This document shows, in pieces, positions 1 to 21,725 of a DNA stretch of 40,705 nt. A model generated the notes under the pieces. The model saw only the letters and a program-made list of their open reading frames with translations, had not been told where the DNA came from and ran no database searches. Source of the DNA: a virus; the IMG/VR virus record IMGVR_UViG_3300034374_007556, positions 1 to 40,705 of that record; one strand, written 5' to 3'. The position numbers and the translations under genes are program-made. Position 1 is the stretch's first letter. The number at the start of each line of letters is the position of its first letter.

Positions 1-1193
1 ACATAACCAGAACCGTCGTTGGCAAATGCACCCTCAATTGCGATGTAGGTTGCAACGTCGCTGCTCGAATGGTTGACGCGGCCCTGCAAGCCGTCAATTC
101 CGCCGAACATCGTGTTCTGGTTCAGCGTGAAGGCGTTAACAATCACGTTCAGCGTCAACTCGTCCGAGATGCCGAACGGCCACGCTGCACGAGCCTTAAT
201 CGTGTAGGTGCCAGGGGTGTTCTCGATGCCCGCAACAGTTCCAGCCGATGCGGCGGCGTTGTAAACGCCGGCGGTGCCGGTGTAGTCGTAAAAGGCGTAG
301 CTGACACCCACCAAGTCGGAATCAACTGAAAGAGTCGTGCTCCACAGCTGGCCCTGGTCGACTGGAGCGGGATCGGAACCACTAAGAATCGGCTTGCGGA
401 TGTAACCCGCCTCTTCTGCTAAAGGACGGCTGTTGATTTCAAGCTTTTGGTCTGTGGTGTTGTACGAGAGCACAGCATCGCCCAGGTAGAGCGAATTGTT
501 ATTCAAGTACAGATCACGCCATTTGTTGGTAGGGGAGCCCAGGTCGCGGGTCGCGTCGCCGTCGGGAATCAGGTCGCTGTTGACGCTGGTGGTCACGCTC
601 AGCTGATCGGCGGTCAGCGTGGTGCCGTCAAACGTGACGTTCGGGCTGCCAGCAAACGCTCCAGCGTTATTGAATTGGACTTGGGTGTCGGCGCCGCCAG
701 GGACTCCAGAACCGCCGCTGCTAACGACTTCGGGTTCGTAGGCGGTGACTGCAGTGACAAGCGTCGGGAAGTCACCCACAGGGACTTCAAACTTGTTCCG
801 TGAGGCTTCGCGGGCTGCTGTGATGCGGGCTGGGCGGAAACTGACGGTGCCTTCGACGCCGTCCACATACAACGTGATTAGATCGCTGCCGATGTCCAGG
901 TTGGCCAGCGCGTTCGGGTTGATCAGCAGCAAATCGGCCAGTGGCTCGGACATGCCGGCTGTACGCATGGAGACGTACAACGTGTTGGCCGCTCCAGTCG
1001 CCAGGTTGATGAAGGGACCTGGGGCGGATGTTTCCAGGCCGATTACATCGGGCTCGTTTATTAAACTAAAGTAGATGCCTGGTGTACCAGAGAACTGACC
1101 CGAGGCGACGGTAAACAGTTTGCAGTACGCGACGCTCGAACCATTAACCTTTCGGCCTGGAACGATCTCGTGATACGCCAGATTGAAGCTCAC
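1..1193 (-). CDS. Large adhesin/tail-fibre-like structural protein, N-terminal 397 codons (runs off left edge)
   Basis: A single minus-strand frame stays open from a GTG at 1191-1193 to the window edge with no stop (397 codons), so the C-terminus lies outside. The frame has a stop two codons before the GTG, which fixes the start region, although no good ribosome binding site is visible. The N-terminus reads VSFNLAYHEIVPGRK. Around residues 165-185 it has GGADTQVQFNNAG, and around 210-225 DATRDLGSPTNKWRDLYL; both resemble motifs I associate with cyanophage fibre and structural proteins. A probable Ig-like stretch (YTIKARAAWPFG) follows, then a segment that may begin a lectin-like domain. It is the last visible gene of the packaging/portal strand. 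Virion surface or fibre function is inferred; the open frame is seen directly. Confidence 0.8.
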   Translation of the reverse strand, partial: MSFNLAYHEIVPGRKVNGSSVAYCKLFTVASGQFSGTPGIYFSLINEPDVIGLETSAPGPFINLATGAANTLYVSMRTAGMSEPLADLLLINPNALANLDIGSDLITLYVDGVEGTVSFRPARITAAREASRNKFEVPVGDFPTLVTAVTAYEPEVVSSGGSGVPGGADTQVQFNNAGAFAGSPNVTFDGTTLTADQLSVTTSVNSDLIPDGDATRDLGSPTNKWRDLYLNNNSLYLGDAVLSYNTTDQKLEINSRPLAEEAGYIRKPILSGSDPAPVDQGQLWSTTLSVDSDLVGVSYAFYDYTGTAGVYNAAASAGTVAGIENTPGTYTIKARAAWPFGISDELTLNVIVNAFTLNQNTMFGGIDGLQGRVNHSSSDVATYIAIEGAFANDGSGY

Positions 1194-1250
1194 GGCTCAT
1201 GGCAAGAAACGCTAAGCCAAGCTTAACGGCCCTATTTCGAGCCAGGGCTT

Positions 1251-1502
1251 CTACTTTTTTGTATCTGAATTGCTGGTCCAGGGGGCGTGAATGCTCATGC
1301 CCCCTCCAAGCAAACGGCTGTCGCCCGTTTGTAACTCTTCGTCAATTGGCTCATCAACGACAACAGGGCCTGCTGCTTCTGGCTGGGTTTTATGCCAGTC
1401 CTCGACGGCACGGTCCAGGCGGGGTTTGAGGGTGGCTTGGAACTTGAAGTCCTTTGCCGCTTGGTGGACGTGGTCGCGCCAATCCCTCGTGCTGTATCGC
1501 AC
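1251..1502 (-). CDS. Small hypothetical protein
   Basis: An 83-residue frame with a GTG start (MRYSTRDWRDHVHQ), charged and soluble, with no membrane segment or recognised domain. It starts just downstream of the small membrane protein gene that ends at 1517 and is followed by the large structural gene starting at 1193, so it is probably co-transcribed. The frame is open further upstream, so the true start could be slightly earlier. Function is unknown. Confidence 0.5.
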   Translation of the reverse strand: MRYSTRDWRDHVHQAAKDFKFQATLKPRLDRAVEDWHKTQPEAAGPVVVDEPIDEELQTGDSRLLGGGMSIHAPWTSNSDTKK

Positions 1503-1516
1503 CAGCCAGGTTGTGG

Positions 1517-1657
1517 TCAGGACTTTTTTCGGGAGATGGCGTTGAGGAGGCTGATAACCAGTTGGATCCAGCTGTTGCTGCGGATGGGCAGCAGGGTCAG
1601 GATTTCGCTCCCGGCGGCAGCCAGGATTGCGACGACAGCGATAGTGGTGGCGTCCAT
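1517..1657 (-). CDS. Small one-pass membrane protein (46 aa)
   Basis: ATG at 1655-1657 to TGA at 1517-1519. The product starts MDATTIAVVAILAAAGSEIL and ends NAISRKKS. Residues 5-20 form a hydrophobic helix, a second hydrophobic stretch follows (SWIQLVISLL), and the tail is basic. Similar tiny proteins occur beside lysis or portal genes in cyanophages, so a holin-like or membrane accessory role is possible, but this is inference. A perfect 12-bp palindrome, AGAAGTACTTCT, lies directly before the start codon (1659-1670). Confidence 0.6.
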   Translation of the reverse strand: MDATTIAVVAILAAAGSEILTLLPIRSNSWIQLVISLLNAISRKKS

Positions 1658-1681
1658 TAGAAGTACTTCTCTAGGTACAGC

Positions 1682-1951
1682 TTATTGGGTTAGTTCTCTC
1701 TTTAGGTGTTCTAGTAGCGCTTTTTCGTGTGGCTGCATCCCGGCGCGATCTTTAAGCTCCAGCTCGAAAACCCGGAGGCGCACGGTGCGTAAATACACCT
1801 CGTCCACCATGCTCCGCACTTCAGACGTCTTCGCATAGCGCATTTCCACGCCTAAAACAGCGCCGGTCAACGTCACAAACAGGCCGATCCCGATCGCAAA
1901 CGATTCAAGACCTAATAATGTACTATTCTGGCCTTGGTTCGGGGGTTCCAT
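1682..1951 (-). CDS. Small membrane protein with a charged C-terminal helix (89 aa)
   Basis: I take the ATG at 1949-1951, giving MEPPNQGQNSTLLGLESF. The longer frame upstream merely overlaps the portal gene and has no sign of being coding. Residues 15-38 (SFAIGIGLFVTLTGAVLG) are one transmembrane helix; the remaining roughly 50 residues are highly charged and probably helical (VFELELKDRAG, EHLKRELTQ). The start overlaps the portal 3' end by 29 bases, implying translational coupling. An N-terminal anchor with a helical cytoplasmic or periplasmic part would suit a lysis accessory protein, but no family was recognised. Confidence 0.65.
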   Translation of the reverse strand: MEPPNQGQNSTLLGLESFAIGIGLFVTLTGAVLGVEMRYAKTSEVRSMVDEVYLRTVRLRVFELELKDRAGMQPHEKALLEHLKRELTQ

Positions 1952-3359
1952 TGCGCTCTTCGCGTAAGCGTTGGATGAGGGAGACCTCCTCCCCGACATC
2001 CAAGTTATCGGGAAGAACTTCACCCCGTTGGAGCACCCGAAGGAATGTTTCGTCCGACAAACCTCCACGAGCGTTGATCTCGTTAAGAACTGCAACGTCC
2101 TGACCGATCAGACGGTAGAAATCAAACTCCCGATCCAGCACGATTCTCGGGGCTTCAACTCCCAAATACGCCGCTGCTAGCGCAAATGCCTCGTTTAGGG
2201 CGCTTTCAAGCTCTAAAGACAGGATTGCTAGGACACTATTGGCTTGGGCTTGGTCGACGCGCTTGGCGTCTGCTGACTCGCCCACAAATTTTTGACCGAG
2301 CAGCTTGGTTACGCCGAGCGTTGCCATCTGTTGCTCAAGTTGCTCAATTTCGGCGCTCTGAGACGCAAAACTGCTCGCGTCTGACTGGATGTAGTAAGCC
2401 TTGTGGCCCGGCTCCATCGAAATACCGTAGTTGGGACCAACCGATGCGCTAGATGCGTCCTCGTCCCAGCCCTCAAGCACCAATGTCGGCATTGCCGCGA
2501 TGTGCAAAGCGTGGATTAGGTCGGCTTGGCGCTGGTAATGCGTGATGTTCAGGGAGGCGATGTCCTGGAGCGGCGGTTTGCTCAGCAGCATCCCCTCACG
2601 GGACGCGTAAATCGGCACTAGCGGAATTTCTTCGATGCTCAGAGTGCCGCTGGTCACCACGTTCTCTTCTGGGGTGCCCTCCCCACGCTCGTATGTCTCA
2701 AAACGACCGGGGTAAATCACGGTCATTTGCTCGATCTTGTCCTCGCCAAACTTGCCCGCTGGACGGGTGATCACCTGGTAAATCCGCACCTGCGAAAGTG
2801 GGGCGCTGGGAAGCGTGTTTTCCTGCCGCCAACCCCAAATCTGTGGGGCGTCAATGTGGTTGAAGTACGGGCGGCGGCTAAGCGCTCGCTCCTCCGCCAG
2901 CGTTAGCGCTCCAGGGGCGTTGGGGTAGTCGACCAAAATGGCGCTGTGCCCGTAGGTCAGCGTCGAAATCATGGCGCGACGGGCGTATTCGTTTATCGAA
3001 GAGCCCAGACCGTCGACGTTACGGGCAAAATCTTGCCAGTACTCGTCCCCAAGCACACGGATTGGACGGCGCAGGACTAGGCCGGCGGCGTTCTCGATGA
3101 TCCGGATCGTGAATGGTGAGAGGACGCTGCGCCGAATACGCGCTTTCCAGGCTTCCTCGTCCTCGCGGGGCTCTTGAGGCAGGTAGATCGGGGCGTTTAG
3201 ACGGATCCAGTCGCTGCCGTTCGTTACGGCTTCCATGATTCGCCAGCCGTCCGACATCGCTGCGACGTCGTTGTCCCGGTAAAACGGGTCGTCGGTTGCC
3301 GTTGACCCAGACAGATACCCGGAATACGCTGTATTGCTAAACGCAGGGCCTGGATACAC
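1923..3359 (-). CDS. Portal protein (DUF4055-like)
   Basis: Forms the dodecameric ring at the capsid vertex through which DNA enters and leaves. It resembles the DUF4055 portal family: a conserved early block (AMSDGWRIMEAVTNGSDWI, then EAWKARIRRSVLSPFTIRII) and AGLVLRRPIRVLG, followed by a long alpha/beta body and a helical C-terminus (ESADAKRVDQAQANSVLAIL). It lies directly downstream of the large terminase gene, the usual packaging order. The frame extends back to a TTG at 3416 that overlaps the terminase stop, but those extra residues (MVINSCCCKLLLTKSRS) do not look like portal sequence. I therefore prefer the GTG at 3357-3359; the start is uncertain. The gene overlaps the downstream small membrane gene by 29 bases. 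Confidence 0.85.
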   Translation of the reverse strand: MYPGPAFSNTAYSGYLSGSTATDDPFYRDNDVAAMSDGWRIMEAVTNGSDWIRLNAPIYLPQEPREDEEAWKARIRRSVLSPFTIRIIENAAGLVLRRPIRVLGDEYWQDFARNVDGLGSSINEYARRAMISTLTYGHSAILVDYPNAPGALTLAEERALSRRPYFNHIDAPQIWGWRQENTLPSAPLSQVRIYQVITRPAGKFGEDKIEQMTVIYPGRFETYERGEGTPEENVVTSGTLSIEEIPLVPIYASREGMLLSKPPLQDIASLNITHYQRQADLIHALHIAAMPTLVLEGWDEDASSASVGPNYGISMEPGHKAYYIQSDASSFASQSAEIEQLEQQMATLGVTKLLGQKFVGESADAKRVDQAQANSVLAILSLELESALNEAFALAAAYLGVEAPRIVLDREFDFYRLIGQDVAVLNEINARGGLSDETFLRVLQRGEVLPDNLDVGEEVSLIQRLREERNGTPEPRPE

Positions 3360-3409
3360 GGCTATCGACCTGGATTTTGTTAGTAGCAGCTTACAGCAGC
3401 ACGAGTTGA

Positions 3410-4657
3410 TTACCAAACTCGATAGCTAGTGCCGCCCGATTGGGTGCTTTTGTTTAAGTTGAATTTCATCAGACATAGGTAGCCGAGAGCATCGAACAAA
3501 TGGTCTACCCCAAGCTTCTTGTTGGGCATCCCGTTGGCGTCGTAGGTAAGGGTGCGCAAGGATTTAATCGTTTCCTTGCAACGGGGGTGAATCTTGAGAC
3601 GCCGGACGTCATTACTGTCTAATACAGCCGTGTTGACACAGTTCACCTTGTCCCGGACTTTCCAGGGAGAGCGGGGACTGCTTACCTTTATGCCGCCCTT
3701 GCGAAGAATAGCGTGGTCCGTTAAACCAACACCAGCTGTCTTCCTGGCTGCACCAGTCGGATCGGGTGATACGTCCTTACGACGCTCCAGGCCGAATTTT
3801 TCGTTGATGGCCTCGACCATTTCCCATGTTGTCGAGTTGACCATAACAATTTCGTCGAAGATGTGGAGTTCATCTTCTACTCGAACTGCGCAAACACAGC
3901 TCATATTATCAATGTTAAAGTCCAAGCCGAGGTAAAGGGTGAGTTCGGGGATGTCCTTGACGGTTTTGTCGATGTTGTCTTCGGAGAAGTTGACGGCGAC
4001 GAGGCCGGAAAGGTTCTCGAAGGAGGCTTCGAACTCTTGGCGAAAGGTGCGGGGGTCGAGTTGGGAGCGGGCGGCTTCGACTTCCTCGGCTGGGACGTTG
4101 CCGCCTTCAATCGTGGTATAAGACCAGCGCTTCCATAATCCGCTTGGGTCTTCTTCCGCGTAGCACCACAGGTCGTAAAACCAGCTCGCCGTTCCATCCG
4201 GCGTTGAAATGAATAAGGCCCAGCCCTGCTTGTCGGCTAGCGCGGGGCGGAGCACTTCGAACCAGACGCCGGGGTCCATAAAGGCAGCTTCGTCCAGCAC
4301 CACGCCGCTCAAACTGCGACCGCGAAGCGCCATGGCGTTTTCGGTTCCTTTCAGCTCGATAGTTGATCCATTTACGAGTTCGAGCTTGAGGTCCGTTTCG
4401 TTTTTCGCTTTTATCCACGCTTTGGGCACCAGTTGTTTGAGGACCTTCCAGGCGATGTCTTTCGCCATGCGGTAGGTGGGGGCGCAATAGAAGAAGGTTT
4501 CGCCCGGTTTGTCGATGGCACCGCGTAGGAGTTCGATGCAGGAGAGATACGATTTGCCGAAACGGCGGCCTGCTACAAGGACCCTAAAGCGCTCGCGGCT
4601 GTTGAATACTGCGCCTTGCGCTTTTCGTAGCGTTAGTTCTGCCGTTCCAGCAGGCAT
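3410..4657 (-). CDS. terL: Terminase large subunit (packaging ATPase-nuclease)
   Basis: The DNA-packaging motor, 415 residues, the usual length for this class. The ATPase Walker A is at residues 28-36 (VAGRRFGKS) and Walker B near 118-124 (GVVLDEA), with the coupling motif ISTPDGTASWFYD after it. The RNase H-like nuclease follows, with acidic residues in LGLDFN (about 243), DPTGAARKT (about 301) and GVDHLFDALGYL (about 384). It starts with ATG immediately after the stop of the upstream small gene at 4658, and its end overlaps the extended portal frame. The group has a late promoter candidate at 5237-5247. Confidence 0.95.
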   Translation of the reverse strand: MPAGTAELTLRKAQGAVFNSRERFRVLVAGRRFGKSYLSCIELLRGAIDKPGETFFYCAPTYRMAKDIAWKVLKQLVPKAWIKAKNETDLKLELVNGSTIELKGTENAMALRGRSLSGVVLDEAAFMDPGVWFEVLRPALADKQGWALFISTPDGTASWFYDLWCYAEEDPSGLWKRWSYTTIEGGNVPAEEVEAARSQLDPRTFRQEFEASFENLSGLVAVNFSEDNIDKTVKDIPELTLYLGLDFNIDNMSCVCAVRVEDELHIFDEIVMVNSTTWEMVEAINEKFGLERRKDVSPDPTGAARKTAGVGLTDHAILRKGGIKVSSPRSPWKVRDKVNCVNTAVLDSNDVRRLKIHPRCKETIKSLRTLTYDANGMPNKKLGVDHLFDALGYLCLMKFNLNKSTQSGGTSYRVW

Positions 4658-5020
4658 TTAGGTGAGGAGGGCGAGGAGTCCGGCTAAGCATACAAGGGCT
4701 AGCACAGAAGAGATGATGTAGGCGGTGTGGTCGGTGGGGTCGAGGCGTTGTGGCGCGGGGCGAGTCTGTTGGGGTGGCTGATACGTGATCGGTTCGGGGA
4801 CGGGGCGAACTGGGTCTGGAGAAACTATGCGCAGGGTTGAGACGCTGGTGGGTTGGCGGTACACCGGAAGGGATGAGTTTCGGCGCATGTGCGGACTTAC
4901 CCAGACGATCTTTCCGTTTGACATGCGGCGGTAGTGGCCGCGCACCAGGCTGGGGCCGGTCTTTCGGGTGCGGGTGCGCCAGGTGGTGCGCCAGCCCCAA
5001 CTGCGTCTGCGGTAGCCCAT
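4658..5020 (-). CDS. Small basic protein with a C-terminal membrane helix
   Basis: 120 residues. The N-terminus is very basic (MGYRRRSWGWRTTWRTRTRK). It is followed by VRGHYRRMSNGKIVWVSPHM, which resembles a short motif of phage and cyanobacterial small proteins in which RGHYR and W-V-x-PH are conserved. The middle is proline-rich, and the last 20 residues (IISSVLALVCLAGLLALLT) form a transmembrane helix. The ATG overlaps the upstream stop (TAATG) and the stop abuts the terminase ATG. The function is unknown; membrane anchoring is supported by sequence. Confidence 0.65.
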   Translation of the reverse strand: MGYRRRSWGWRTTWRTRTRKTGPSLVRGHYRRMSNGKIVWVSPHMRRNSSLPVYRQPTSVSTLRIVSPDPVRPVPEPITYQPPQQTRPAPQRLDPTDHTAYIISSVLALVCLAGLLALLT

Positions 5021-5205
5021 TAGTTGCGGCGCTCCAGGCAGGTGGTGGTGTACTTGGTGGGTTGGGTGCAGGTTGTGGTGATGCGCGTGGGGGTGCTTCG
5101 GGTGGTGGGGGTGCAGTAGTTGCCGTAGCGGTAGTAGCCCGGTGGGCAGAGGCCCTGGCCGCTCCAGGGCACTGCTGTTTGGGCGAGTAGCACAATAGCC
5201 AACAT
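5020..5205 (-). CDS. Short secreted or membrane-anchored cysteine-containing peptide
   Basis: 61 residues. It begins with a hydrophobic signal-like segment (MLAIVLLAQTAVPWSG), then CPPGYYRYGNYCTPT, a two-cysteine motif found in short secreted cyanobacterial proteins, and a Thr/Arg-rich tail. It is the first gene of the terminase-portal transcription unit, about 30 bases after a promoter candidate. The overlap with the next gene is one base (TAATG). Its role is not known. Confidence 0.55.
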   Translation of the reverse strand: MLAIVLLAQTAVPWSGQGLCPPGYYRYGNYCTPTTRSTPTRITTTCTQPTKYTTTCLERRN

Positions 5206-5236
5206 TGTGATGCTGTATTTTTGGGGGGCTTGTTTT

Positions 5237-5247
5237 AGCGTAGCACA
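5237..5247 (-). promoter_or_regulatory. Extended -10 promoter for the terminase/portal unit
   Basis: On the minus strand the bases read TGTGCTACGCT: the TGn extended -10 plus hexamer TACGCT (5237-5242). It lies about 30 bases upstream of the first gene of the packaging unit (start 5205) and is divergent from the plus-strand promoter at 5266. No clear -35 is visible. Confidence 0.6.
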
Positions 5248-5265
5248 GAATGAACCCCTCCCCCC

Positions 5266-5276
5266 TGTGCTAGGAT
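5266..5276 (+). promoter_or_regulatory. Extended -10 promoter (plus strand)
   Basis: TGTGCTAGGAT, with -10 hexamer TAGGAT at 5271-5276. It is the plus-strand partner of the divergent pair at 5237-5276. Only a 21-codon GTG frame precedes the second promoter at 5379, so this promoter may drive a leader or the gene at 5416. Confidence 0.5.
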
Positions 5277-5378
5277 AGACAAGAAGCCAGTTGTATCAGT
5301 AGGTTCCCTACCCGCCACTGTGCCACACAAGAAACCGACCACCACCCCCGCTTCGGCCGCCCCGATCCCGCCAATCCC

Positions 5379-5388
5379 GTGCTAGGGT
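5379..5388 (+). promoter_or_regulatory. Extended -10 promoter for the gene at 5416
   Basis: CGTGCTAGGGT, with -10 hexamer TAGGGT at 5383-5388. It is spaced 28 bases from the ATG at 5416 and is a second copy of the promoter motif at 5266. Confidence 0.55.
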
Positions 5389-5415
5389 AAAGGGGCAAAC
5401 GGTTCACCCAAGGCC

Positions 5416-5619
5416 ATGCTCTTCAAAGTTGTTGTCAGCCTCATCGATCGCAGCAACCGCCCCAGCGGTGCGATCATCGGGTTCTCTTACAACGTGCAGG
5501 CAGAATCAGCAGAGCAAGCCGAGGCCATGGCGACAGCACGCACAAACCAGCTCCATCAGCCTGGCCTTTACTTCATCGAATCAGTAAAAGACGTAACTCC
5601 TACAGTCTCTCGCTACTGA
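5416..5619 (+). CDS. Small hypothetical protein (67 aa)
   Basis: A compact alpha/beta-looking protein: MLFKVVVSLIDRSNRPSG, then SYNVQAESAEQAEAMATARTN and LYFIESVKDVTP. The pattern of strand, strand, helix with EQAEAMA, strand is typical of small phage early proteins that I cannot assign. It forms a complete transcription unit of its own: promoters at 5266 and 5379 and a strong terminator at 5634-5661. Confidence 0.7.
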   Translation: MLFKVVVSLIDRSNRPSGAIIGFSYNVQAESAEQAEAMATARTNQLHQPGLYFIESVKDVTPTVSRY

Positions 5620-5633
5620 TCAACAGCAAAACA

Positions 5634-5661
5634 AAAGCCCCGCAACTGCGGGGCCTTTTTT
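5634..5661 (+). terminator. Rho-independent terminator
   Basis: Stem GCCCCGC (5637-5643), loop AACT, stem GCGGGGC (5648-5654), then C and a run of six T. It is preceded by four A, so it may also work for the convergent minus-strand gene ending at 5666. Confidence 0.9.
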
Positions 5662-5665
5662 GTGC

Positions 5666-6073
5666 TCAATCTTCGATCTTGATGTTCAGGTTGGGAACGT
5701 TAATCTCTAGCGCCTGCTGACCCTCTCCTGCTGCCCTGCCGATAGCGTCCATCAGCTGAGCCGCTGATGTCAACTGGTTCTTGCGCAGCGCTTGGTTCAC
5801 GGCTCGGAACCTCATGGACATGAGACGTGCAAGTATAGTCTCACGTTCCAGCTCGAAATCTTGCTGGTTCATTGCGCACACCGCTCGCCAGTCACGCCAG
5901 GCCGTGGTTTCTGCGATGCTTTCACGTTCAGCGTGCTCTAAGACCAGCTGACGGCAAGGCAGGCCACTGAGCTGGGCTTTGTACAGCCTTTTCTGCCGCG
6001 CTTCAATCACGGCGTCTGGGTTCCTTTTACCGAAGGGTCTCTGGGTTCCTTTCAGTTCTTCAGACTCACTCAC
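5666..6073 (-). CDS. Helix-turn-helix protein, candidate terminase small subunit
   Basis: 135 residues with a GTG start. The N-terminal half has a DNA-binding-like helix set (RQLVLEHAERESIAETTAWRDWRAV). The C-terminal half has a helical oligomerisation-like region (ILARLMSMRFRAVNQALRKN, then SAAQLMDAIGRAAGE) of the type seen in small terminase subunits. It ends in an acidic tail (NLNIKIED). It lies on the same strand as the large terminase but is separated from that unit by divergent promoters at 5237-5388. The small-terminase role is inferred from architecture and position. A generic HTH regulator is the alternative. Confidence 0.5.
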   Translation of the reverse strand: MSESEELKGTQRPFGKRNPDAVIEARQKRLYKAQLSGLPCRQLVLEHAERESIAETTAWRDWRAVCAMNQQDFELERETILARLMSMRFRAVNQALRKNQLTSAAQLMDAIGRAAGEGQQALEINVPNLNIKIED

Positions 6074-6118
6074 AACGCGCCGGCTGATTTAGGTTCAATC
6101 TACCCAAAAGCACAGCAA

Positions 6119-6145
6119 CAAAAAAGCCCACCTGAGCGGTGGGCC
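6119..6145 (-). terminator. Rho-independent terminator (minus strand)
   Basis: On the minus strand: GCCCACC, loop GCTCA, GGTGGGC (6126-6144), followed by six T (6120-6125). It ends the unit of the gene at 6170-6520 and insulates the gene starting at 6073. Confidence 0.85.
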
Positions 6146-6169
6146 GTGAGGCGAGCGCAGCGAGCCTCA

Positions 6170-6520
6170 CTAGGCGGCGACCAGCTGCAGCGCTGCTGCC
6201 GCACGCTCTACGAACTCGGCAGCCTGGCGACGACTGAGCGAACCAGCAGCCTCATCCTTCGCCAGCGAGGCCTGAATCCTGAGGTTTTCAATCAACGCAT
6301 CGGCCAACAGCGTGCCGCTGTAGGCGTCGACCCGCAGGACGTCGCGATCACCGCCGAACTTGCCACGTTCCAGGCTGATCCCGTTCAGGCCAACCCAGAG
6401 CGTGTCGGATTCTTCAATCCGGAACATCCGTTCTGTGACGTGCTCGGTGGTGGGTTCTTGCGTGCCACCACTGCGAACGGTAGTGGTTTCGATGATGCGG
6501 GGCTGGTGGAGGTTTGCCAT
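6170..6520 (-). CDS. Hypothetical early protein (116 aa)
   Basis: It starts MANLHQPRIIETTTVRSG after a good ribosome binding site (AGGAG, 9 bases before the ATG). The middle is predicted beta-rich (MFRIEESDTLWVGLNGISL), and the C-terminus is an alanine-rich helix (RRQAAEFVERAAAALQLVAA). No family was recognised. It is monocistronic, with its own promoter (6580-6590), a 5'-UTR hairpin and a terminator. The leader around the RBS (CCATAGGAGAA) is nearly identical to that of the small gene at 7259-7387, suggesting shared control or duplication of the leader. Confidence 0.7.
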   Translation of the reverse strand: MANLHQPRIIETTTVRSGGTQEPTTEHVTERMFRIEESDTLWVGLNGISLERGKFGGDRDVLRVDAYSGTLLADALIENLRIQASLAKDEAAGSLSRRQAAEFVERAAAALQLVAA

Positions 6521-14343: not shown

Positions 14344-14349
14344 AGCGGC

Positions 14350-14505: not shown

Positions 14506-14510
14506 AATAG

Positions 14511-14521: not shown

Positions 14522-14547
14522 GGTGTGTACCTAAAACATTTTATGTA

Positions 14548-14977: not shown

Positions 14978-15002
14978 CCATTGTGTCAGTTGGTTTCAAG
15001 AG

Positions 15003-15197: not shown

Positions 15198-15210
15198 GCG
15201 CTCCAGGCCG

Positions 15211-15465: not shown

Positions 15466-15484
15466 CCCCCATCCCCCTTGATCG

Positions 15485-15495
15485 TGTGCTACGGT
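15485..15495 (+). promoter_or_regulatory. Extended -10 promoter for the gene at 15521
   Basis: TGTGCTACGGT, with -10 TACGGT at 15490-15495. It lies 26 bases before the ATG at 15521, in the short gap after the gene ending at 15465. Confidence 0.7.
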
Positions 15496-15520
15496 ATGGG
15501 AGTTCCAACCGGAGCCACCC

Positions 15521-15778
15521 ATGCCCCAAGTTCAATTCCTCAGCGCTATCCGCAAGTTCCCCGACTGGATCGAGTTCGTTGCGGTCGTGCCTGACATGGT
15601 GCAAGTCGCACCAGCCACTCGCTGGGATCCCCCTGAGTTCGGCTCCGCGCAGTGCCGCGGCCTGCTCTCCTGGGATCCTTACGTCGATGGCGACTCTCTT
15701 GATCTGACCGATGAACAACTCGAAAGCCTTTGCCAGGACCCGTCGATCGAGTGGGAGCTGGACCCGAACGATTTTTAA
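15521..15778 (+). CDS. Small acidic hypothetical protein (85 aa)
   Basis: MPQVQFLSAIRKFPDWIEFV, then AVVPDMVQVAPATRWDPPEF and an acidic C-terminus (DLTDEQLESLCQDPSIEWEL). It has its own promoter. The bases before the ATG (GCCACCC) recur before the starts at 16717 and, less exactly, 7575, so start context may be a feature of this phage. Function is unknown. Confidence 0.65.
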   Translation: MPQVQFLSAIRKFPDWIEFVAVVPDMVQVAPATRWDPPEFGSAQCRGLLSWDPYVDGDSLDLTDEQLESLCQDPSIEWELDPNDF

Positions 15779-16004
15779 TAGCCTGCGCAGCCCTTACTTC
15801 TGGTTTGGGCTGCTTCTCTCCTACAACCTCTACGACTGGACCCAAAACCATGGCCGCTATCAAACGCATCAGCAAGTCGGCTGCGCAACAGCAGAAGAGC
15901 ATCGGGAACCCGCCAACTATCCGGGAGAAGACTGGTGCCATACCTCTCCAGCAAACCCAACCTGCCCAGACCGTTCCAGCCTCACCGAATACCCCGGACC
16001 ATGA
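15711..16004 (+). CDS. Possible small membrane protein overlapping the DUF3310 gene
   Basis: This frame contains a convincing membrane segment (SPYFWFGLLLSYNLYDW) at about 15785-15835, between the 15521 gene and the DUF3310 ATG. The part after it is low in coding character because it overlaps DUF3310. No good start codon lies just before the membrane segment; the ATG at 15711 lies inside the upstream gene. It may be a real overlapping gene with an unusual start. Confidence 0.3.
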   Translation: MNNSKAFARTRRSSGSWTRTIFNSLRSPYFWFGLLLSYNLYDWTQNHGRYQTHQQVGCATAEEHREPANYPGEDWCHTSPANPTCPDRSSLTEYPGP

Positions 16005-16212
16005 TCCGGTGGATCGTCCCAGTCACTACACGCAGGGCGACATCGAATGTCTGGACGCAATCAAGGCGTCCATGCCGCACGAGCAGTTCCTCGGCTTCCT
16101 CAAGGGGAGCGAGATGAAGTACGTCTGGCGCTACCAGCACAAGGGCGGCCTCGAAGACCTGAGGAAGGCCACCTTCTACCTGGCGCGTCTGATCTCTGAG
16201 GTGTCGGTATGA
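15850..16212 (+). CDS. DUF3310 protein (phage nucleotide-kinase-like)
   Basis: I start at ATG 15850 (MAAIKRISKSAAQQQ). After a disordered Gln/Pro-rich N-terminus, the C-terminal 70 residues form the DUF3310 domain: DRPSHYTQGDIECLDAIKAS, then FLGFLKGSEMKYVWRYQHKG and GLEDLRKATFYLARL. This domain is very common in phages and is often annotated as nucleotide kinase-like, but its biochemistry is not settled. It overlaps the next gene by four bases (ATGA). Confidence 0.85.
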   Translation: MAAIKRISKSAAQQQKSIGNPPTIREKTGAIPLQQTQPAQTVPASPNTPDHDPVDRPSHYTQGDIECLDAIKASMPHEQFLGFLKGSEMKYVWRYQHKGGLEDLRKATFYLARLISEVSV

Positions 16213-16373
16213 CTCACGAGAAATCTGACTCCAAGATCACTCTGAGCGAGCGTGGAGAAGAAGTCATTTGTGTTGACAGGGAAGGCTTTCATTACAAAGG
16301 TCAGTTCATCGCTGATGCAGGCGAAGCGCATCGCCTGTTGGTTGCGTTCCTGAAAAGGCACACCACTGTCTGA
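16209..16373 (+). CDS. Small hypothetical protein (54 aa)
   Basis: ATG at 16209 overlapping the DUF3310 stop, TGA at 16371-16373. MTHEKSDSKITLSERGEEVI, then DREGFHYKGQFIADAGEAHR and LLVAFLKRHTTV: strands followed by a C-terminal helix. The layout resembles small proteins seen near DUF3310 genes in cyanophages. The overlap implies coupled translation. Confidence 0.6.
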   Translation: MTHEKSDSKITLSERGEEVICVDREGFHYKGQFIADAGEAHRLLVAFLKRHTTV

Positions 16374-16376
16374 TCC

Positions 16377-16387
16377 TGTGCTACAAT
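16377..16387 (+). promoter_or_regulatory. Extended -10 promoter for the gene at 16411
   Basis: TGTGCTACAAT, with -10 TACAAT at 16382-16387, 24 bases before the ATG at 16411. The stop of the preceding gene is just upstream. Confidence 0.7.
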
Positions 16388-16410
16388 TCCAACGTCAACG
16401 AGGTTCATCC

Positions 16411-16665
16411 ATGGCCCACAACGACCTGTTCCTGTCCACCACACGTCCCAACTACTACGAGTTGCTGCCGCAGATCGAGGCCGCGATGGCCGATGAGGAT
16501 CGCACGATCCAGGCACGGCTTGATGCTGGCTGGGACGCTGATCCTGAGTACGGCTGGGCGTCGCCCGATGGCATCTCCGAGTCCGACTGGGAGACCGAGG
16601 GCTACCCCCTGCCTGAGGAGCCTGGCTTTGCCGAGTTCATGAAGACCTACGCACAGATCAACTGA
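16411..16665 (+). CDS. Small acidic hypothetical protein (84 aa)
   Basis: Start at ATG 16411: MAHNDLFLSTTRPNYYELLP, then a helical middle (QIEAAMADEDRTIQARLDAG) and an acidic, aromatic C-terminus (ISESDWETEGYPLPEEPGF). It is first in a unit with the DNA polymerase gene, which starts 52 bases after its stop. Function is unknown. Confidence 0.65.
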   Translation: MAHNDLFLSTTRPNYYELLPQIEAAMADEDRTIQARLDAGWDADPEYGWASPDGISESDWETEGYPLPEEPGFAEFMKTYAQIN

Positions 16666-16716
16666 TCCCGATAGATCGGTAATTCAGGTTTAACTTTCTA
16701 CATTCCGAGTCCACCC

Positions 16717-18543
16717 ATGGCCGACTACAAAGTTCTGTTCGGCGTCGAGCATCTCGACGCTGTGAACACTTGCGTCTCTCTGGCGTTCGACACAGAAACG
16801 CTCCAGCTCCAACCTGAGAAGGGGAAGCTGCGCCTCATTCAGCTTGGCTGTGAGGCGCGTAAGACCATCGTGATCATCGACTGCTTCAAGCTCGATGCCG
16901 AGGGTTGGAAGAAGCTCCGCTTGTTCTTCAGCAATGGCCAACGCTTTTGGTTGGCGCATAACGCTGTGTTTGATCTGGGCTGGCTGCAAGAGCACGACAT
17001 TTACGTCGAGGGGCGTGTGCGGTGCTCGATGATCGCCAGCCGCCTGCTCAACAATGGCGTGCCCAACATGAAGCACGGCCTCGATGCCGTCGCCAAGCGC
17101 TACCTCAAAAAGGAGCTGGACAAAGAAGAGCAGCGCTCGGACTGGAGCGGTGAGCTGTCCATCAGTCAGCTGAAATATGCGGCCGAGGATGTGATCACGC
17201 TGCTCCAGCTCGATCCAGTCCTGGATCAGCGGTTGGCGAAGGCTGCCCTGGCCAGAGCGTTTGCCATTGAGTGCAAGGCGTTGCCCGCCATGGCGCAGAT
17301 GTGGCGCACTGGCCTGCCCTGGAACGCCGAGAAGCTTCAGAAGGTCAGGGAGGACTACGAGTACGACATCGAGCAGCTGGGCAAAGACTTCGTGCGGCAG
17401 CTTGATCAGGCGCTGCCCGAAGAGCACAAGCTGCCTCGCGATCCAGACGGCTCCTTCAACTTGCGGGCTAAGACCACTGGCTCCGTGCGGCTGGGCACCA
17501 AGCAACTGGCTGGCTTCAATCTCAACAGCCCGCGGCAGTTAGTCGATAAGTTCACGGTGCTGCTGGGCCGGCCTCCGGTCGATCCGAAGACAGAACGACC
17601 CAGCGCCTCTAGGGCAGCGCTGCGTAACTACGCTGCCGACCATGAGGTGGTGCAAATCTACTTGGCCTGGAAGAAGGCTGAGAAGCGCCGCCAGATGGTT
17701 GAATCCATCCAAGACAAGCTCGGTGCTGATGGCTTTGTTCGTGCCAGTTACCTTCAGTTGGGCGCAGATACGGGGCGGATGTCCTGTATTAAGCCGAATA
17801 ATCAGCAGATTCCACGTGATGAAGCTTTCCGTTCTTGTGTGGAAGCTCCCGATGGTTGGCTCCTAGTTGATGCTGATTTCTCCGGCATGGAATTGCGCCT
17901 AGCGGCAGCTGTTGCCGAAGATCCGGTGATGACCGAAGCGTTCCAGGCTGGGCAGGACCTGCACCAACTCACAGCGGATCTGCTGGGGTGTGAGAGGCAG
18001 GTGGCTAAGTCCGCCAACTTCGGCCTGCTGTACGGCTCGGGTGCCAAGGGGCTTCGTGACTACGCCGGCGCGACTGGCATCACCATGACCATGGAGGAGG
18101 CCAAGAAAATCCGGGAGGATTGGCTAACGGCGTACCCCGGAATCCGCATGTGGCAACAGGCCAATGCCCGCGACGCTGAGAAGTCCGAGGGCAACCAGTG
18201 GGCCGAAACTCGGATTCCCATCTCCGGCTTCCGGCGCTTCCTGCCCGGTGACATGAACCGGCTGACCGTCCGTTGCAACACACCGATCCAGGGGGCTGGT
18301 GCGGCCATCCTCAAGGTGGCGCTGGCCAACCTCTGGGGTGAGGTCAAGAGCCAGGGTGAGGATGTGGTGAAGATCGCTGCTGCAGTACACGACGAGCTGT
18401 TGTTGCTGGTTCGTGAGGATCATGCGCAGTGGTGGGCCGAGCACCTAAAACGAGTGATGGAGGCGGCTGAAGCCAAGTGGTTGGGTGACATCCCGGCACT
18501 GGCTGAGCCCCAAATCGGTAAACGCTGGTCCGAGGCTCACTGA
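16717..18543 (+). CDS. Family-A DNA polymerase with 3'-5' exonuclease domain
   Basis: 608 residues, replicating phage DNA. The proofreading exonuclease has motif I FDTET (24-28), motif II HNAVFDLGWL (about 79-88) and a third motif in YAAEDVITLL. The polymerase has motif A DADFSGMELR (about 384), motif B RQVAKSANFGLLYG (about 429) and motif C AVHDELL (about 562). The O-helix position equivalent to E. coli F762 is Phe. It lacks the 5'-3' nuclease, as is common in phages. Its stop overlaps the start of the next gene (TGATG). With the Prim-Pol/helicase and SSB it forms a compact replisome. Confidence 0.95.
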   Translation: MADYKVLFGVEHLDAVNTCVSLAFDTETLQLQPEKGKLRLIQLGCEARKTIVIIDCFKLDAEGWKKLRLFFSNGQRFWLAHNAVFDLGWLQEHDIYVEGRVRCSMIASRLLNNGVPNMKHGLDAVAKRYLKKELDKEEQRSDWSGELSISQLKYAAEDVITLLQLDPVLDQRLAKAALARAFAIECKALPAMAQMWRTGLPWNAEKLQKVREDYEYDIEQLGKDFVRQLDQALPEEHKLPRDPDGSFNLRAKTTGSVRLGTKQLAGFNLNSPRQLVDKFTVLLGRPPVDPKTERPSASRAALRNYAADHEVVQIYLAWKKAEKRRQMVESIQDKLGADGFVRASYLQLGADTGRMSCIKPNNQQIPRDEAFRSCVEAPDGWLLVDADFSGMELRLAAAVAEDPVMTEAFQAGQDLHQLTADLLGCERQVAKSANFGLLYGSGAKGLRDYAGATGITMTMEEAKKIREDWLTAYPGIRMWQQANARDAEKSEGNQWAETRIPISGFRRFLPGDMNRLTVRCNTPIQGAGAAILKVALANLWGEVKSQGEDVVKIAAAVHDELLLLVREDHAQWWAEHLKRVMEAAEAKWLGDIPALAEPQIGKRWSEAH

Positions 18544-18719
18544 TGAATTGCGCCGTCTACACCGTCGAGGGTGGCTACAAGCTTCAAACCCAAGCTGGCT
18601 CGGTGTACTGCACTAGCCTGTGGGAAGCAATGGACCTTGCTTACTCTCTTGGCGAAGACTGGGCGGCAGCTGGTCCTGGAATACTTGAGCCGGGAGACGC
18701 GGTTGGCATCCACGGCTGA
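18543..18719 (+). CDS. Small protein coupled to DNA polymerase (58 aa)
   Basis: ATG at 18543 overlaps the polymerase TGA, with a stop at 18717-18719. It begins MNCAVYTVEGGYKLQTQAGS, then VYCTSLWEAMDLAYSLGEDW: two strands and a helix. It may share the polymerase transcript and be translated by re-initiation. No family is known. Confidence 0.6.
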   Translation: MNCAVYTVEGGYKLQTQAGSVYCTSLWEAMDLAYSLGEDWAAAGPGILEPGDAVGIHG

Positions 18720-18852
18720 CCTTCAGCGCGCTGCTGAGTTCTTGGAGTGGAGCCGCTACGTCAGAAAGGGCTGTGCCAAGCAACGCGGCGCTTCGCGCCG
18801 GGCGCAGCTCAATGCGTGGCGTAAGGATTTTGACGCTCCAGCCGCTTGGTAG
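18703..18852 (+). CDS. Small basic helical protein (49 aa, TTG start)
   Basis: In the frame of TTG 18703 the sequence reads LASTADLQRAAEFLEWSRYV, then KGCAKQRGASRRAQLNAWRK, a helical and very basic protein. The start overlaps the preceding stop. The frame extends further upstream with no coding character. The basic C-terminus suggests nucleic-acid binding. The start codon is uncertain, because a TTG at 18685 is also in frame. Confidence 0.45.
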   Translation: MASTADLQRAAEFLEWSRYVRKGCAKQRGASRRAQLNAWRKDFDAPAAW

Positions 18853-18876
18853 CACAGTGCTAAGATTGGTAGCACA
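18846..18876 (+). promoter_or_regulatory. Promoter with flanking direct repeats (RHH autoregulation)
   Basis: -10 TAAGAT (18861-18866) with AGTGC before it. It is flanked by two perfect 11-bp direct repeats, TTGGTAGCACA (18846-18856 and 18866-18876), spaced 20 bp, and by a palindrome TAGCAC-A-GTGCTA overlapping the -10. Two-turn spacing across the promoter is typical of ribbon-helix-helix repressor sites. The RHH gene starts at 18889. Confidence 0.7.
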
Positions 18877-18888
18877 CGAGCGCAACGC

Positions 18889-19161
18889 ATGGCTACCCGG
18901 CACGGGAATAAGAGCTACTTCCAGATCCTGCTGGATCCCAACCGGGCCGACCTGGTCATGCAGCTGTCGGACCAGGCAGGGGTTAAGCCCACCGCCTGGA
19001 TCCGTGATGCTCTTTATGAGGTGCTGAAGCGCAAGCTGCCGTCGTCTGTTTACGACGAGGCCTTGGCCAAGGACGAGGTGACCTGGCGCGAAACCGTGCG
19101 CAAACGTGTAGAAGGGCGACTGAAAAACCGAAAAGACTCGAAAGAATCCACGGAAGCCTGA
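18889..19161 (+). CDS. Ribbon-helix-helix-type DNA-binding protein
   Basis: 90 residues: MATRHGNKSYFQILLDPNRA, then DLVMQLSDQAGVKPTAWIRD and ALYEVLKRK. The N-terminal strand, followed by helices with the VKPTAWIRDALYE turn, fits a CopG-like ribbon-helix-helix regulator. The C-terminus is highly charged and helical. It probably binds the direct repeats in its own promoter (18846-18876). The ATG is 23 bases from the -10, so the transcript is nearly leaderless. Confidence 0.75.
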   Translation: MATRHGNKSYFQILLDPNRADLVMQLSDQAGVKPTAWIRDALYEVLKRKLPSSVYDEALAKDEVTWRETVRKRVEGRLKNRKDSKESTEA

Positions 19162-19167
19162 CTACAT

Positions 19168-19176
19168 TGCTACATT
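19168..19176 (+). promoter_or_regulatory. Extended -10 promoter for the sigma-factor unit
   Basis: TGCTACATT, with -10 TACATT at 19171-19176, 23 bases before the GTG at 19199. CTACATT is repeated just upstream. It lacks the full TGTG motif, so confidence is lower. Confidence 0.45.
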
Positions 19177-19198
19177 ACGGGCTGCATTTTTTCAATCC

Positions 19199-19402
19199 GT
19201 GCGCTTTGGTGTCGGTGTTCACAACCCGCCTGGCTTCTACGTTCTCGCTCCAGTCAGTGACGGTGAAGCCCGGCTGCAGCTGACCTCCATCGAAGAAGAC
19301 GCCTGCTCGTTTTCCAGCTTGATGTCTGCGATCATGTTCGCGGCCGTGGTCAAAAAAGACCACGGCTTTGGCACGCATGTCTACGTCACTGACGAGAAGT
19401 AA
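19199..19402 (+). CDS. Small protein upstream of the sigma factor (67 aa)
   Basis: It starts at GTG 19199: MRFGVGVHNPPGFYVLAPVS, then EARLQLTSIEEDACSFSSLM. The last base of its stop is the A of the sigma-factor ATG (TAATG), so the two are translationally coupled. It could be a small partner of the sigma factor, but no anti-sigma family was recognised. Confidence 0.55.
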   Translation: MRFGVGVHNPPGFYVLAPVSDGEARLQLTSIEEDACSFSSLMSAIMFAAVVKKDHGFGTHVYVTDEK

Positions 19403-20271
19403 TGGACAACCTCAGTCAGTACATCAACTCCATTGCCCGCTACCCGCTGCTGACCAAAACCCAGGAGATCATGCTGAGTCGTCAGGTTCGGGAGTGGCTC
19501 GACGCAGAGGAGCCGACGCCCCAGCAGGCCAGGATCGGTAAACGGGCTTACGAAAAGCTGATTAACTGCAACCTGCGGATCGTAGTGTCGATCGCCAAGA
19601 AGTACATGCCACGTGCCAGGCGCACGGAAATGTTGGATGTAATACAGGAGGGGAACATAGGCCTGGCGCATGGGATCAAGAAGTTCGATCCTGAGCGGGG
19701 CTATGCACTATCGACATACATCTATTGGTGGATTCGGCAGGGGATTACGCGCCACCTCAATTATCACGATCGGATGATTCGGCTGCCTTGTAATGGGGTG
19801 GATCTGCTGAACAAGCTGCGTTACTGGCTGCCGCAGTTCCAGCAAGAACATGGGCGGATGCCGACCCAGGAGGAGTACGCCGAGTATTTGGAGGTGTCAA
19901 AGGATCGGGTCAATGACTATCTGCGGCATGTCCACGACTGCACCAGTCTCGATCAGAGGGCCAGGAGCCTCTCGGATGATGGCTCTGCGCTGGTCGAGAT
20001 GATCCCAGACGAGCGTGAACACCCGATGCAGTCGCTCGAATGGGCGATCGGTGTCGGCGCTTTGGATCTGCTGCTGGATCGTCTGCCAGAGGATGATCGC
20101 GAGATCCTAAAGATGTACTACGGGATAGGCGGGCATCGCACGCACACGCTCGCGGAAATCGGTAGAACATTTGGCGTGTCCAGAGAAAGGATTCGGCAGC
20201 GGCACAGCAAGGCTGTGCTGAAGCTGAGGATCCTTTCGACTGGTGCGTCGGTCGGAGAAGTCTGCAAATGA
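19402..20271 (+). CDS. Sigma-70 factor of the SigA/group-2 type
   Basis: 289 residues, with the region 1.2-like start (LSQYINSIARYPLLTKTQEI), region 2 (NCNLRIVVSIAKKYMPRARR, then MLDVIQEGNIGLAHGIKKFD and STYIYWWIRQGITRHL), region 3, and region 4 with its HTH (LAEIGRTFGVSRERIRQRHS). This length and layout match cyanobacterial group-2 or alternative sigma factors rather than ECF types. It is probably used to direct host RNA polymerase to phage promoters, as discussed for the TGTG(C/A)TAnnnT family. It overlaps the genes on both sides. Confidence 0.9.
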   Translation: MDNLSQYINSIARYPLLTKTQEIMLSRQVREWLDAEEPTPQQARIGKRAYEKLINCNLRIVVSIAKKYMPRARRTEMLDVIQEGNIGLAHGIKKFDPERGYALSTYIYWWIRQGITRHLNYHDRMIRLPCNGVDLLNKLRYWLPQFQQEHGRMPTQEEYAEYLEVSKDRVNDYLRHVHDCTSLDQRARSLSDDGSALVEMIPDEREHPMQSLEWAIGVGALDLLLDRLPEDDREILKMYYGIGGHRTHTLAEIGRTFGVSRERIRQRHSKAVLKLRILSTGASVGEVCK

Positions 20272-20504
20272 AACAGCGTTCAACCGCCGGCTGCCCCGAG
20301 TGCGGCAGCTCCAGGAGTTCTGTCGTCTTCACGAAAGACACGGAAGACGGTCAGCGGCTACGCCGCCGCCACTGCGCCCATTGCGAGCACAAGTGGTATA
20401 CGGTCCAGCCACAGGAAAAGTCGCTGCCGCCGTGGGCTGTGACTTTCACTGGTAAAGGCTCCAAACAGCAAATTTTCTTACACCCGCAGGTCATCAATGC
20501 TTAA
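20268..20504 (+). CDS. Zinc-ribbon protein
   Basis: 78 residues: CPECGSSRSSVVFTK (first Cys pair), then RRRHCAHCEHKWYTV (second pair). This resembles the zinc finger of NrdR and of small phage transcription factors. It lacks an ATP-cone, so it is not NrdR itself. It starts four bases before the sigma-factor stop and overlaps ThyX by eight bases, so all three are translationally linked. A role in transcription, such as a co-activator of the sigma factor, is plausible but unproven. Confidence 0.75.
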   Translation: MKQRSTAGCPECGSSRSSVVFTKDTEDGQRLRRRHCAHCEHKWYTVQPQEKSLPPWAVTFTGKGSKQQIFLHPQVINA

Positions 20505-21141
20505 TCCTGTATCACTTGTCTGGGCTACGCCGGACGCAGAGAAGCTCATCGCAAAGATGGCGCGCGTTTCGAATCCAGACAATCAAGAAAACCACGAGAC
20601 GGCTCCTCGCTTGCTTCGATACCTCATCGAGCACCGTCACTGGAGTCCGTACGAGATGGCCTCGCTCTGCCTAGAGATCAAGACGGAGCGGGACATTGCC
20701 GCTCAGATCTTGCGGCACCGGAGCTTTTCGTTCCAAGAGTTCTCGACACGTTATGCCAGGACGGGGCCGGCTGAAGTTCCCAAGTGGCGGACACAGGATT
20801 TGAAGAATCGGCAGGCCAGTCACGATGACCTAGACCCCAAAATCGCTGAGCAGTTCGACTGGCAGACCTCAATACTGATGCGCAACATCTACCTGACGTA
20901 CCAGGACATGTTGAACACTGGGATTGCTAAGGAGTGTGCGCGGCGGATCCTGCCCCTCTGCACGCCGACCACCCTGTTCATGAGCGGGACATTGAGATCG
21001 TGGATCCATTACCTCGATTTGCGGTGCAGTAATGAGACTCAACTGGAGCATCGTGAGATCGCCCAGGCGGCTAAGTTGATATTCGCAGAGCAATTCCCTG
21101 TTATTGCGGAGGCTGCATGGCCATCACAGACATCCAGCTGA
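20497..21141 (+). CDS. thyX: Flavin-dependent thymidylate synthase ThyX
   Basis: It makes dTMP from dUMP with methylene-tetrahydrofolate and FAD. The ThyX signature RHRSFSFQEFSTRY is at residues 73-86, with the preceding HWSPYEMASL segment and a C-terminal helical half. The length of 214 residues is usual. It relieves nucleotide limits during phage DNA replication. The gene overlaps the zinc-ribbon gene upstream and the M15 peptidase gene downstream. Confidence 0.95.
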   Translation: MLNPVSLVWATPDAEKLIAKMARVSNPDNQENHETAPRLLRYLIEHRHWSPYEMASLCLEIKTERDIAAQILRHRSFSFQEFSTRYARTGPAEVPKWRTQDLKNRQASHDDLDPKIAEQFDWQTSILMRNIYLTYQDMLNTGIAKECARRILPLCTPTTLFMSGTLRSWIHYLDLRCSNETQLEHREIAQAAKLIFAEQFPVIAEAAWPSQTSS

Positions 21142-21725
21142 CGCCCCAGGAGTGGAAGAACTTTTGGGTTTACTTCAAGGAAGAGCCTCAGCAGGTCGAA
21201 GCAATCGAAATGCTGCGGCAGTTCGTCAATGAGGCTGACCCCACCCTCCTGACGCAAAGCGCCAGCTGGGTGCTCAAGTTCCGCGAGTCGCCCAAAGAGC
21301 CGGATGTAAGAAAACTTACGCCTGGTGCGCCGTACAGCCAGGAGGTTACGCCGAATTTCACTTACGGCGAGCTGACTCTTAACGATCCAGCCCGGAGGTT
21401 CTTGAACCAGGGGCAGTGCGACATTGCGATTGAGCTGTGTCAGTTCCTGGAAAAAGCCAGGGCGAAGTTTGGGCCGATCAAGATCACCAGTGGGCACCGC
21501 CCCAGCGGGGTCAATGCGGCGGTGGGCGGGGCGAGCAACAGTGAGCACCTGTTCAATGTCGGCTGCGGTGCTGTGGACTGTTACCCATTGAAGGGTGATG
21601 GTATGGCCTTCGAGAAGTGGGTCGATGACAACTGGCCGTATTCGGTGGGGTACGGAATGTCGTACCGGGGCTTTTGTCACATCGGGATGCGCGCTGGACG
21701 ACCCAGGGTGCGGTGGGATTACTGA
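21117..21725 (+). CDS. Zn peptidase of the M15 type (endolysin-like)
   Basis: 202 residues. The C-terminal half has the D,D-peptidase (Peptidase_M15) features: ITSGHRPSGVNAAVGG, then SEHLFNVGCGAVDCYP and GFCHIGMR, with His and Asp as zinc ligands. The N-terminal half is helical and may be a binding part. It probably cleaves host peptidoglycan at lysis. The start overlaps ThyX by 25 bases, and its stop is the last base before the small-RNA promoter. Confidence 0.85.
   Translation: MAITDIQLTPQEWKNFWVYFKEEPQQVEAIEMLRQFVNEADPTLLTQSASWVLKFRESPKEPDVRKLTPGAPYSQEVTPNFTYGELTLNDPARRFLNQGQCDIAIELCQFLEKARAKFGPIKITSGHRPSGVNAAVGGASNSEHLFNVGCGAVDCYPLKGDGMAFEKWVDDNWPYSVGYGMSYRGFCHIGMRAGRPRVRWDY

Follow-up and report, generated by a model that had tools for sequence, protein, structure and literature searches.

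A strand-polar octamer associated with the replication module in a clade of phages with probable cyanobacterial hosts

Background

Chi sites, such as GCTGGTGG of E. coli, which acts with RecBCD, and AGCGG of B. subtilis, which acts with AddAB, are over-represented, orientation-dependent words of 5–8 bp that are enriched in the chromosome of the host. Here we describe a word of similar appearance, the octamer CGNTCCAG, in a viral DNA of 40,705 nucleotides (IMG/VR record IMGVR_UViG_3300034374_007556, positions 1 to 40,705; this whole stretch is called the window) and in the relatives of this virus. It is likewise over-represented and orientation-dependent, and its complement starts with CTGG. 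Unlike Chi, however, it is the property of a phage clade, without special enrichment in host candidates. A search of the literature for CGNTCCAG gave no match.

Other classes of short repeated words offer further points of comparison. Architecture-imparting sequences (AIMS) and the FtsK-orienting polar sequences (KOPS) are strand-biased, degenerate octamers, whose reader is thought to be a translocase or the replication machinery; AIMS rise in frequency towards the terminus on both chromosome arms, and change strand at the origin and the terminus. The stoperators of cluster A mycobacteriophages comprise tens of short asymmetric sites across a phage genome, are bound by the repressor and are oriented to transcription. 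Primase-polymerases (PrimPols), by contrast, start primers at template motifs: that of phage NrS-1 reads 5'-TTTGGTTA-3', the archaeal ORF904 uses its helix bundle to read GTG, and GP55 of phage 1706 reads CCAAC (PMC8718748, PMC12205980). Such motifs are up to 8 nt long in phage PrimPols (PMC8718748), and 3–8 nt in helix-bundle PrimPols.

Results

Exact counting gave 54 forward and 12 reverse copies of CGNTCCAG in the window, with 48 forward and 10 reverse in the first 21.8 kb, and 6 forward and 2 reverse in the tail half (Table 1); the pattern read backwards, taken as a control, occurs 4 times forward and 3 times in reverse. The original prediction, made by eye from the sequence, had placed about 45 forward and nine reverse copies in the left half, 18 of them at 6.9–9.5 kb, and the exact counts bear this out (18 forward and none reverse at 6.9–9.6 kb); its about four tail copies become six forward. 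A second-order Markov model expects 7.1 copies in the window against the 54 seen, and CGNTCCAG ranks first for over-representation among all one-gap 8-mers of the window. When codons were preserved and shuffled, 20 sites were seen against 4.2 expected in minus-strand genes (maximum 11 in 2000 shuffles) and 18 against 2.7 in plus-strand genes (maximum 9), with no excess in the tail genes (5 against 3.2, p = 0.19). The minus-strand null is 4.2 instead of about 1 because some in-frame sites, falling in LER or LDR codons on that strand, are partly coding. Reverse sites in the plus-gene block lie modestly above their null (7 against 2.4, p = 0.0015), and the polarity in this block is strong, not absolute.

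Forward sites occupy all three codon phases in plus and minus genes as well as intergenic DNA, as the different codon frames of the original prediction had suggested, and their genomic direction is the same in genes of either strand. A plus-strand open reading frame (ORF) at 7530–7928 holds, together with its 12 relatives, 12 forward and 2 reverse sites; since this family keeps the forward direction, the direction follows the genome, not transcription or the coding strand. A by-product of codon use, of protein motifs such as LER, or of strand composition would account for the minority of sites supplied by LER and LDR codons on the minus strand, and for the single-frame matches of this kind that occur in unrelated contigs, but it is rejected by the Markov and codon-preserving tests, by the spread over frames and intergenic DNA, and by the comparison across genomes, so that we regard it as scarcely credible. 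The earlier statement that codon use alone is insufficient therefore agrees with the shuffles and with the plus-strand ORF, and is strengthened by conservation in the clade. Neither of the two outcomes named beforehand as speaking against a signal, an observed/expected ratio near 1 and loss of strand bias after correction for coding strand, was found. CGNTCCAG is a real polar functional word that codon use does not explain.

Orientation to the genome also bears on the explanation that CGNTCCAG is the binding site of a phage repressor, partition or nucleoid-type protein that would coat or silence the early region through stoperator-like sites. The sites are indeed many, short, asymmetric and concentrated in early genes, and stoperators too are numerous, asymmetric and clade-specific in sequence (PMC6550527). 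Stoperators, however, are oriented by transcription, whereas CGNTCCAG keeps its direction in the two operons alike and in the plus-strand gene that lies within the minus-strand block; its core stays the same in highly diverged phages, unlike repressor sites, which diversify; and no conserved cognate repressor was found. We consider such a role unlikely.

The logo of the word is sharp, and among its one-mismatch variants only those at position 4 rise above background; its core is CGNTCCA. No longer consensus, palindrome or spaced partner was detected, and apart from a preference for A at -1 and for S at +9 the flanks add little. Specificity drifts from group to group about this constant core while the edges tolerate change by degrees, as expected of a protein site. 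Spacing in the densest stretch is 43–249 bp, with more than random regularity (coefficient of variation 0.42 against 0.92; 0 of 4000 random placements were as regular).

Relatives were collected with the PrimPol and the terminase as queries, which yielded 140 loci. In most of these CGNTCCAG is enriched with the polarity seen in the window, over GC contents of about 35–63% and PrimPol identities mostly near 45–55%. Its rank among all one-gap octamers is 1–9 in 10 of 12 motif-bearing genomes. In the other two, G011 and G012, it ranks 21 and 43, and the leading word is its close variant NGCTCCAG. Site conservation at aligned positions reached 145 of 225, against 88 expected, in 15 related contig pairs that are not fully independent, a few of which had no excess of conserved sites. 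Another broad rise in site density surrounds the polymerase gene and extends past it in the relatives, with low density in the tail region. The word recurs with the direction of the window in many distant relatives and is therefore a real signal tied to the replication genes of these phages.

The original prediction had proposed checking for a polarity flip at the replication origin or terminus, and none was found within the window or in full-length relatives, which carry a single polarity all round. CGNTCCAG shares with AIMS and KOPS the strand bias (54/12 in the window, similar in relatives), but differs from AIMS in its single polarity and sharp peak. At four-fold degenerate sites, the plus-strand G excess amounts to +0.23, +0.23 and +0.25 in three blocks of minus-strand genes and to +0.02 in the block of plus-strand genes; high-GC relatives agree. 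This neutral skew keeps its sign along the whole window and separates into replication-like and coding parts, a pattern that suggests one replication polarity without a flip.

Outside the clade, CGNTCCAG is not enriched in the isolates S-CBS1 and S-CBS3 (Synechococcus phages), cyanophage S-2L, Vibrio phage LP.2 or HTVC202P. Unrelated carriers were sought by two triple-site scans of the viral collection. Among the matches listed, contigs with mixed-frame sites were mostly clade members, and the exceptions inspected were mostly tandem repeats or very GC-rich stretches, the repeat type being represented by 69 bp units in L398, L405 and L324, a microsatellite in L301 and a 19 bp tandem in L305. 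The first three are related viral contigs, independent of the clade, in which each of the 69-bp spaced repeats holds CTGGANCG. Nine CGNTCCAG-type sites within about 1 kb were also observed in L203 (2350–3420) and L355 (3590–4668), two contigs that seem to belong to one phage and have hardly any homologues in the clade.

A further scan match (L375) led to phages with a different terminase, about 25% identical to that of the window, and these separate packaging from replication. Two of them, G421 (49 forward and 19 reverse sites) and G422 (57 and 11), combine the different terminase with an exonuclease, a protein resembling single-stranded DNA-binding protein (SSB) and a PrimPol of the window type. 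G423 has the terminase family of G421 and G422, with a distant exonuclease (29%) and PrimPol (26%), and the word is not enriched there (8 and 8 sites). Kept where the terminase is replaced and absent where the module is distant, the word therefore goes with the exonuclease/PrimPol/polymerase module and not with the terminase or packaging. The terminase is an unlikely reader, because other motif-bearing phages carry a different terminase group. An orientation signal for packaging or a DNA translocase would suit the genome-wide polarity, packaging being directional, but a word that is kept with two terminase groups, and absent from terminase-sharing phages without a close replication module, makes that role very unlikely. 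In G421 (L446–L448) we also observed a second polar word, GTGGCNCC, which ranks top there (61 against 8 reverse, 7.0 expected).

Within the module, sites peak at the exonuclease gene. The original prediction had this gene flanked by the densest cluster; the adjacency holds, and the exonuclease itself is the hottest gene in every group of relatives. Its 68 distinct orthologues contain 213 forward sites against 57 expected and 0 reverse, spread over 19 distinct alignment positions and three frames. When genomes are aligned on the exonuclease start codon, forward density rises from left to right to 7.9, 4.7 and 3.4 sites/kb in groups A, B and C, and falls at the gene start to 2.0, 0.5 and 0.1 sites/kb, a saw-tooth that decays leftward over about 3 kb. 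The exonuclease is a candidate reader or processing partner of the word.

Such a profile is what a phage-specific Chi-like site might leave, one that, met from one side, pauses or reprograms an end-processing helicase-nuclease, or the exonuclease (MGME1-like) together with a helicase, and so would protect the early genome half or direct recombination from a fixed DNA end. The saw-tooth ending at the exonuclease start in three groups, the exonuclease as hottest gene, the strict polarity and the regular, saturating spacing all fit, and the complement of CGNTCCAG shares a GCTGG start with E. coli Chi. Marine Synechococcus and Prochlorococcus possess recBCD (PMC5101192). However, no helicase domain was detected in the MGME1-like nuclease by Pfam profiles or PDB comparison, no DNA end or packaging site was located, and the word is not the Chi of the two small cyanobacterial genomes considered below. 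This explanation is possible but less likely than not.

Gene content and likely host

The record has no near match among deposited phages. It encodes a portal, terminase, HNH protein, PD-(D/E)XK exonuclease, primase-polymerase/helicase, family A polymerase, sigma factor, ThyX, endolysin and tail genes. Compared with the full-length relatives G011 and G012, the stretch from portal to major tail protein, the expected place of capsid genes, is missing at the window ends 1 and 40705, and the record looks like an almost full genome that has been opened and cut back between these two genes. The gene at 9734–10324 is found across the clade; its protein has no homologue among isolates, and Foldseek with its structure model (pLDDT 82) gave BRCA2 and RPA as best matches, none significant. 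MGME1-like exonuclease, family A polymerase, PrimPol-helicase and SSB-like protein form a module that resembles a mitochondrial-type replisome. A complete sigma-70-type factor (19402–20271) matches the group 2 sigma factors from two Synechococcus phages, S-CBS3 and S-CBS1, at 42% identity. It has distant relatives in G421, G422, G423 and S-2L, and none was detected in most of the clade.

Isolates with the exonuclease family of the window are nearly all Synechococcus and Prochlorococcus phages, the closest sigma factors among isolates are those of Synechococcus phages, and by terminase S-2L is among the nearest isolates. Because these homologues point to cyanophages, the hosts are probably cyanobacteria. 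A host search by exonuclease homologue in 390 cyanobacterial genomes returned no close match, only ones of about 30%.

Two complete small cyanobacterial genomes were sampled over 200 kb each. In them CGNTCCAG has an observed/expected ratio of 1.1–1.6 with counts of 66/42 and 52/39, and thus neither marked strand skew nor special enrichment; it is low in genomes of Prochlorococcus size. A cyanobacterial host Chi is ruled out for the genomes tested, in which no strong over-representation or leading-strand bias was found. Because isolated relatives lack the word and these genomes do not specially enrich it, it is probably not the Chi site of the presumed cyanobacterial host, and the resemblance to E. 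coli Chi noted in the original prediction finds no support in that sense. More broadly, the phages could have copied a signal read by a host factor, whether host Chi, a KOPS/AIMS-like word or another. Bacterial chromosomes widely carry polar octamers (AIMS, PMC5993296), and nuclease and sigma homologues do point to cyanobacterial hosts; but besides its behavior in these chromosomes, the word is not enriched in S-CBS1, S-CBS3, S-2L or LP.2, and it stays constant in phages of 36–62% GC, whose hosts presumably differ, which makes a borrowed signal improbable. In the first 200 kb of one small cyanobacterial chromosome (G317, L186–L195), words of the CCACCACC/GGTGGTGG type are over-represented and strand-skewed, and are a possible Chi candidate for such hosts.

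Table 1. Sites of CGNTCCAG and genes of interest in the window
Feature	Position	Strand	Remarks
Moderately dense CGNTCCAG stretch	657..6373	+	starts 657, 990, 1411, 2131, 2907, 3783, 4643, 5030, 5160, 5844, 6366; reverse sites nearby at 362, 1157, 2565
Densest CGNTCCAG cluster	6907..9529	+	18 forward sites, 0 reverse; homologous peak in relatives
Starts in densest cluster	6907, 6955, 7164, 7361, 7545, 7689, 7772, 7960, 8086	+	
Starts in densest cluster, continued	8129, 8374, 8623, 8775, 8964, 9032, 9139, 9292, 9522	+	
Second enriched stretch	10545..21390	+	19 forward CGNTCCAG sites, 7 reverse
Starts in second stretch	10545, 10743, 11060, 11833, 12516, 12622, 14928, 15199, 15972, 16505	+	
Starts in second stretch, continued	16799, 17211, 17439, 17939, 18284, 18834, 19246, 20401, 21383	+	
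Tail-gene half, no significant enrichment	21838..40032	.	5 forward, 2 reverse in genes; one more forward at 40049
Terminase large subunit	3410..4657	-	other motif-bearing phages carry a different terminase group instead
ORF with relatives in sister group, within minus-strand block	7530..7928	+	three forward CGNTCCAG sites; comparison of ORF and relatives
PD-(D/E)XK exonuclease, MGME1-like	8676..9488	-	Pfam PF12705; phrog_298; PDB MGME1 E 1e-14
Clade-specific gene between exonuclease and PrimPol; tentative single-stranded DNA-binding protein	9734..10324	-	weak OB-fold resemblance only
Primase-polymerase/helicase (PrimPol)	10349..12937	+	phage primase similarity, PriCT-2 helix bundle, AAA_25 helicase
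Family A DNA polymerase, same module	16717..18543	+	phrog_17; 54-68% identity across clade

Discussion

We tentatively read CGNTCCAG as a phage-specific DNA site that the replication module encoded by the phage recognizes by its sequence, most probably a template motif for primer initiation by the PrimPol/helicase. This enzyme would begin primers at the word on the discontinuous strand, and all sites would point one way if the genome were always copied with a single polarity, which would make one and the same strand the discontinuous template each time. On this proposal the sites are putative priming sites, replication would run unidirectionally round the genome, and the presumed reader would be the PrimPol, acting through its PriCT-2 helix bundle. 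The same genome does encode a PrimPol with such a domain (phage primase profile and PriCT-2), and this protein is the leading candidate reader. Like the sites of NrS-1, ORF904 and GP55, CGNTCCAG is a short asymmetric word that follows the module of an encoded archaeo-eukaryotic primase (AEP) with a helix bundle. It differs from them in its massive over-representation, in a polarity that extends over about half the genome and in its clustering round the exonuclease gene, properties not described for those three in the literature found on them. A primase start site or an exonuclease-modulating site had been named in the original prediction as the most natural hypotheses; they are still the most natural pair, since the word follows the module and PrimPols read motifs (PMC8718748), and neither is proven.

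Several observations weigh against priming. One polarity and a matching neutral G skew are what a discontinuous strand would give, yet the tail half is almost without sites, though priming would be needed everywhere. The peak spacing of 43–249 bp is far tighter than the 1–6 kb of T7 Okazaki fragments (PMC12839067), and a peak on the exonuclease gene is not predicted by priming. Group D (G007, L016, L018, L020) retains the module with hardly any copies of the word. G007 shows 51–60% identity in its exonuclease, PrimPol (51%) and polymerase, with 7 forward and 0 reverse sites in 22 kb against 2.8 expected. The expectation of the word wherever the PrimPol occurs, not strictly a defining one for a primase site, thus fails in this group. 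In addition, the link between protein and word is only inferred, as is unidirectional replication, from skew alone. Priming does not account for the saw-tooth, the close spacing, the nearly site-free tail half or group D, so that a Chi-like site stays a serious rival.

Group D was also compared with the motif-bearing phages gene by gene. No gene common to all of the latter and absent from both D and G423 was found. The exonuclease and SSB-like protein were considered as deviant in group D and rejected: in a leave-one-out control the window itself deviates equally, so the deviation of the module proteins of group D is uninformative.

Taken together, CGNTCCAG behaves as signals of known kinds do (primase site, Chi, KOPS/AIMS) but fits the full definition of none of those that can be tested. 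It may instead belong to an undescribed, phage-encoded, genome-polar system, in which a Chi/KOPS-like signal, saturating the exonuclease gene, would be read by the phage replisome of MGME1-like exonuclease and PrimPol-helicase instead of by the host, and would tell this machinery its direction of travel on phage DNA and mark that DNA as self, a reading that we think rather doubtful.

The clade lacks a close isolate and seems to be plentiful in metagenomes, and the word offers a handle on the replication of such phages, with four candidate reader genes, a sequence known to the base, a natural loss in group D and a natural replacement of the terminase. If the word is read by the phage replisome, it would represent a genome-scale code for orientation or priming, kept despite large change in GC content and protein sequence. 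If this is true, over-represented polar words (Chi, KOPS, AIMS), usually a topic of host chromosomes, can belong to a virus lineage.

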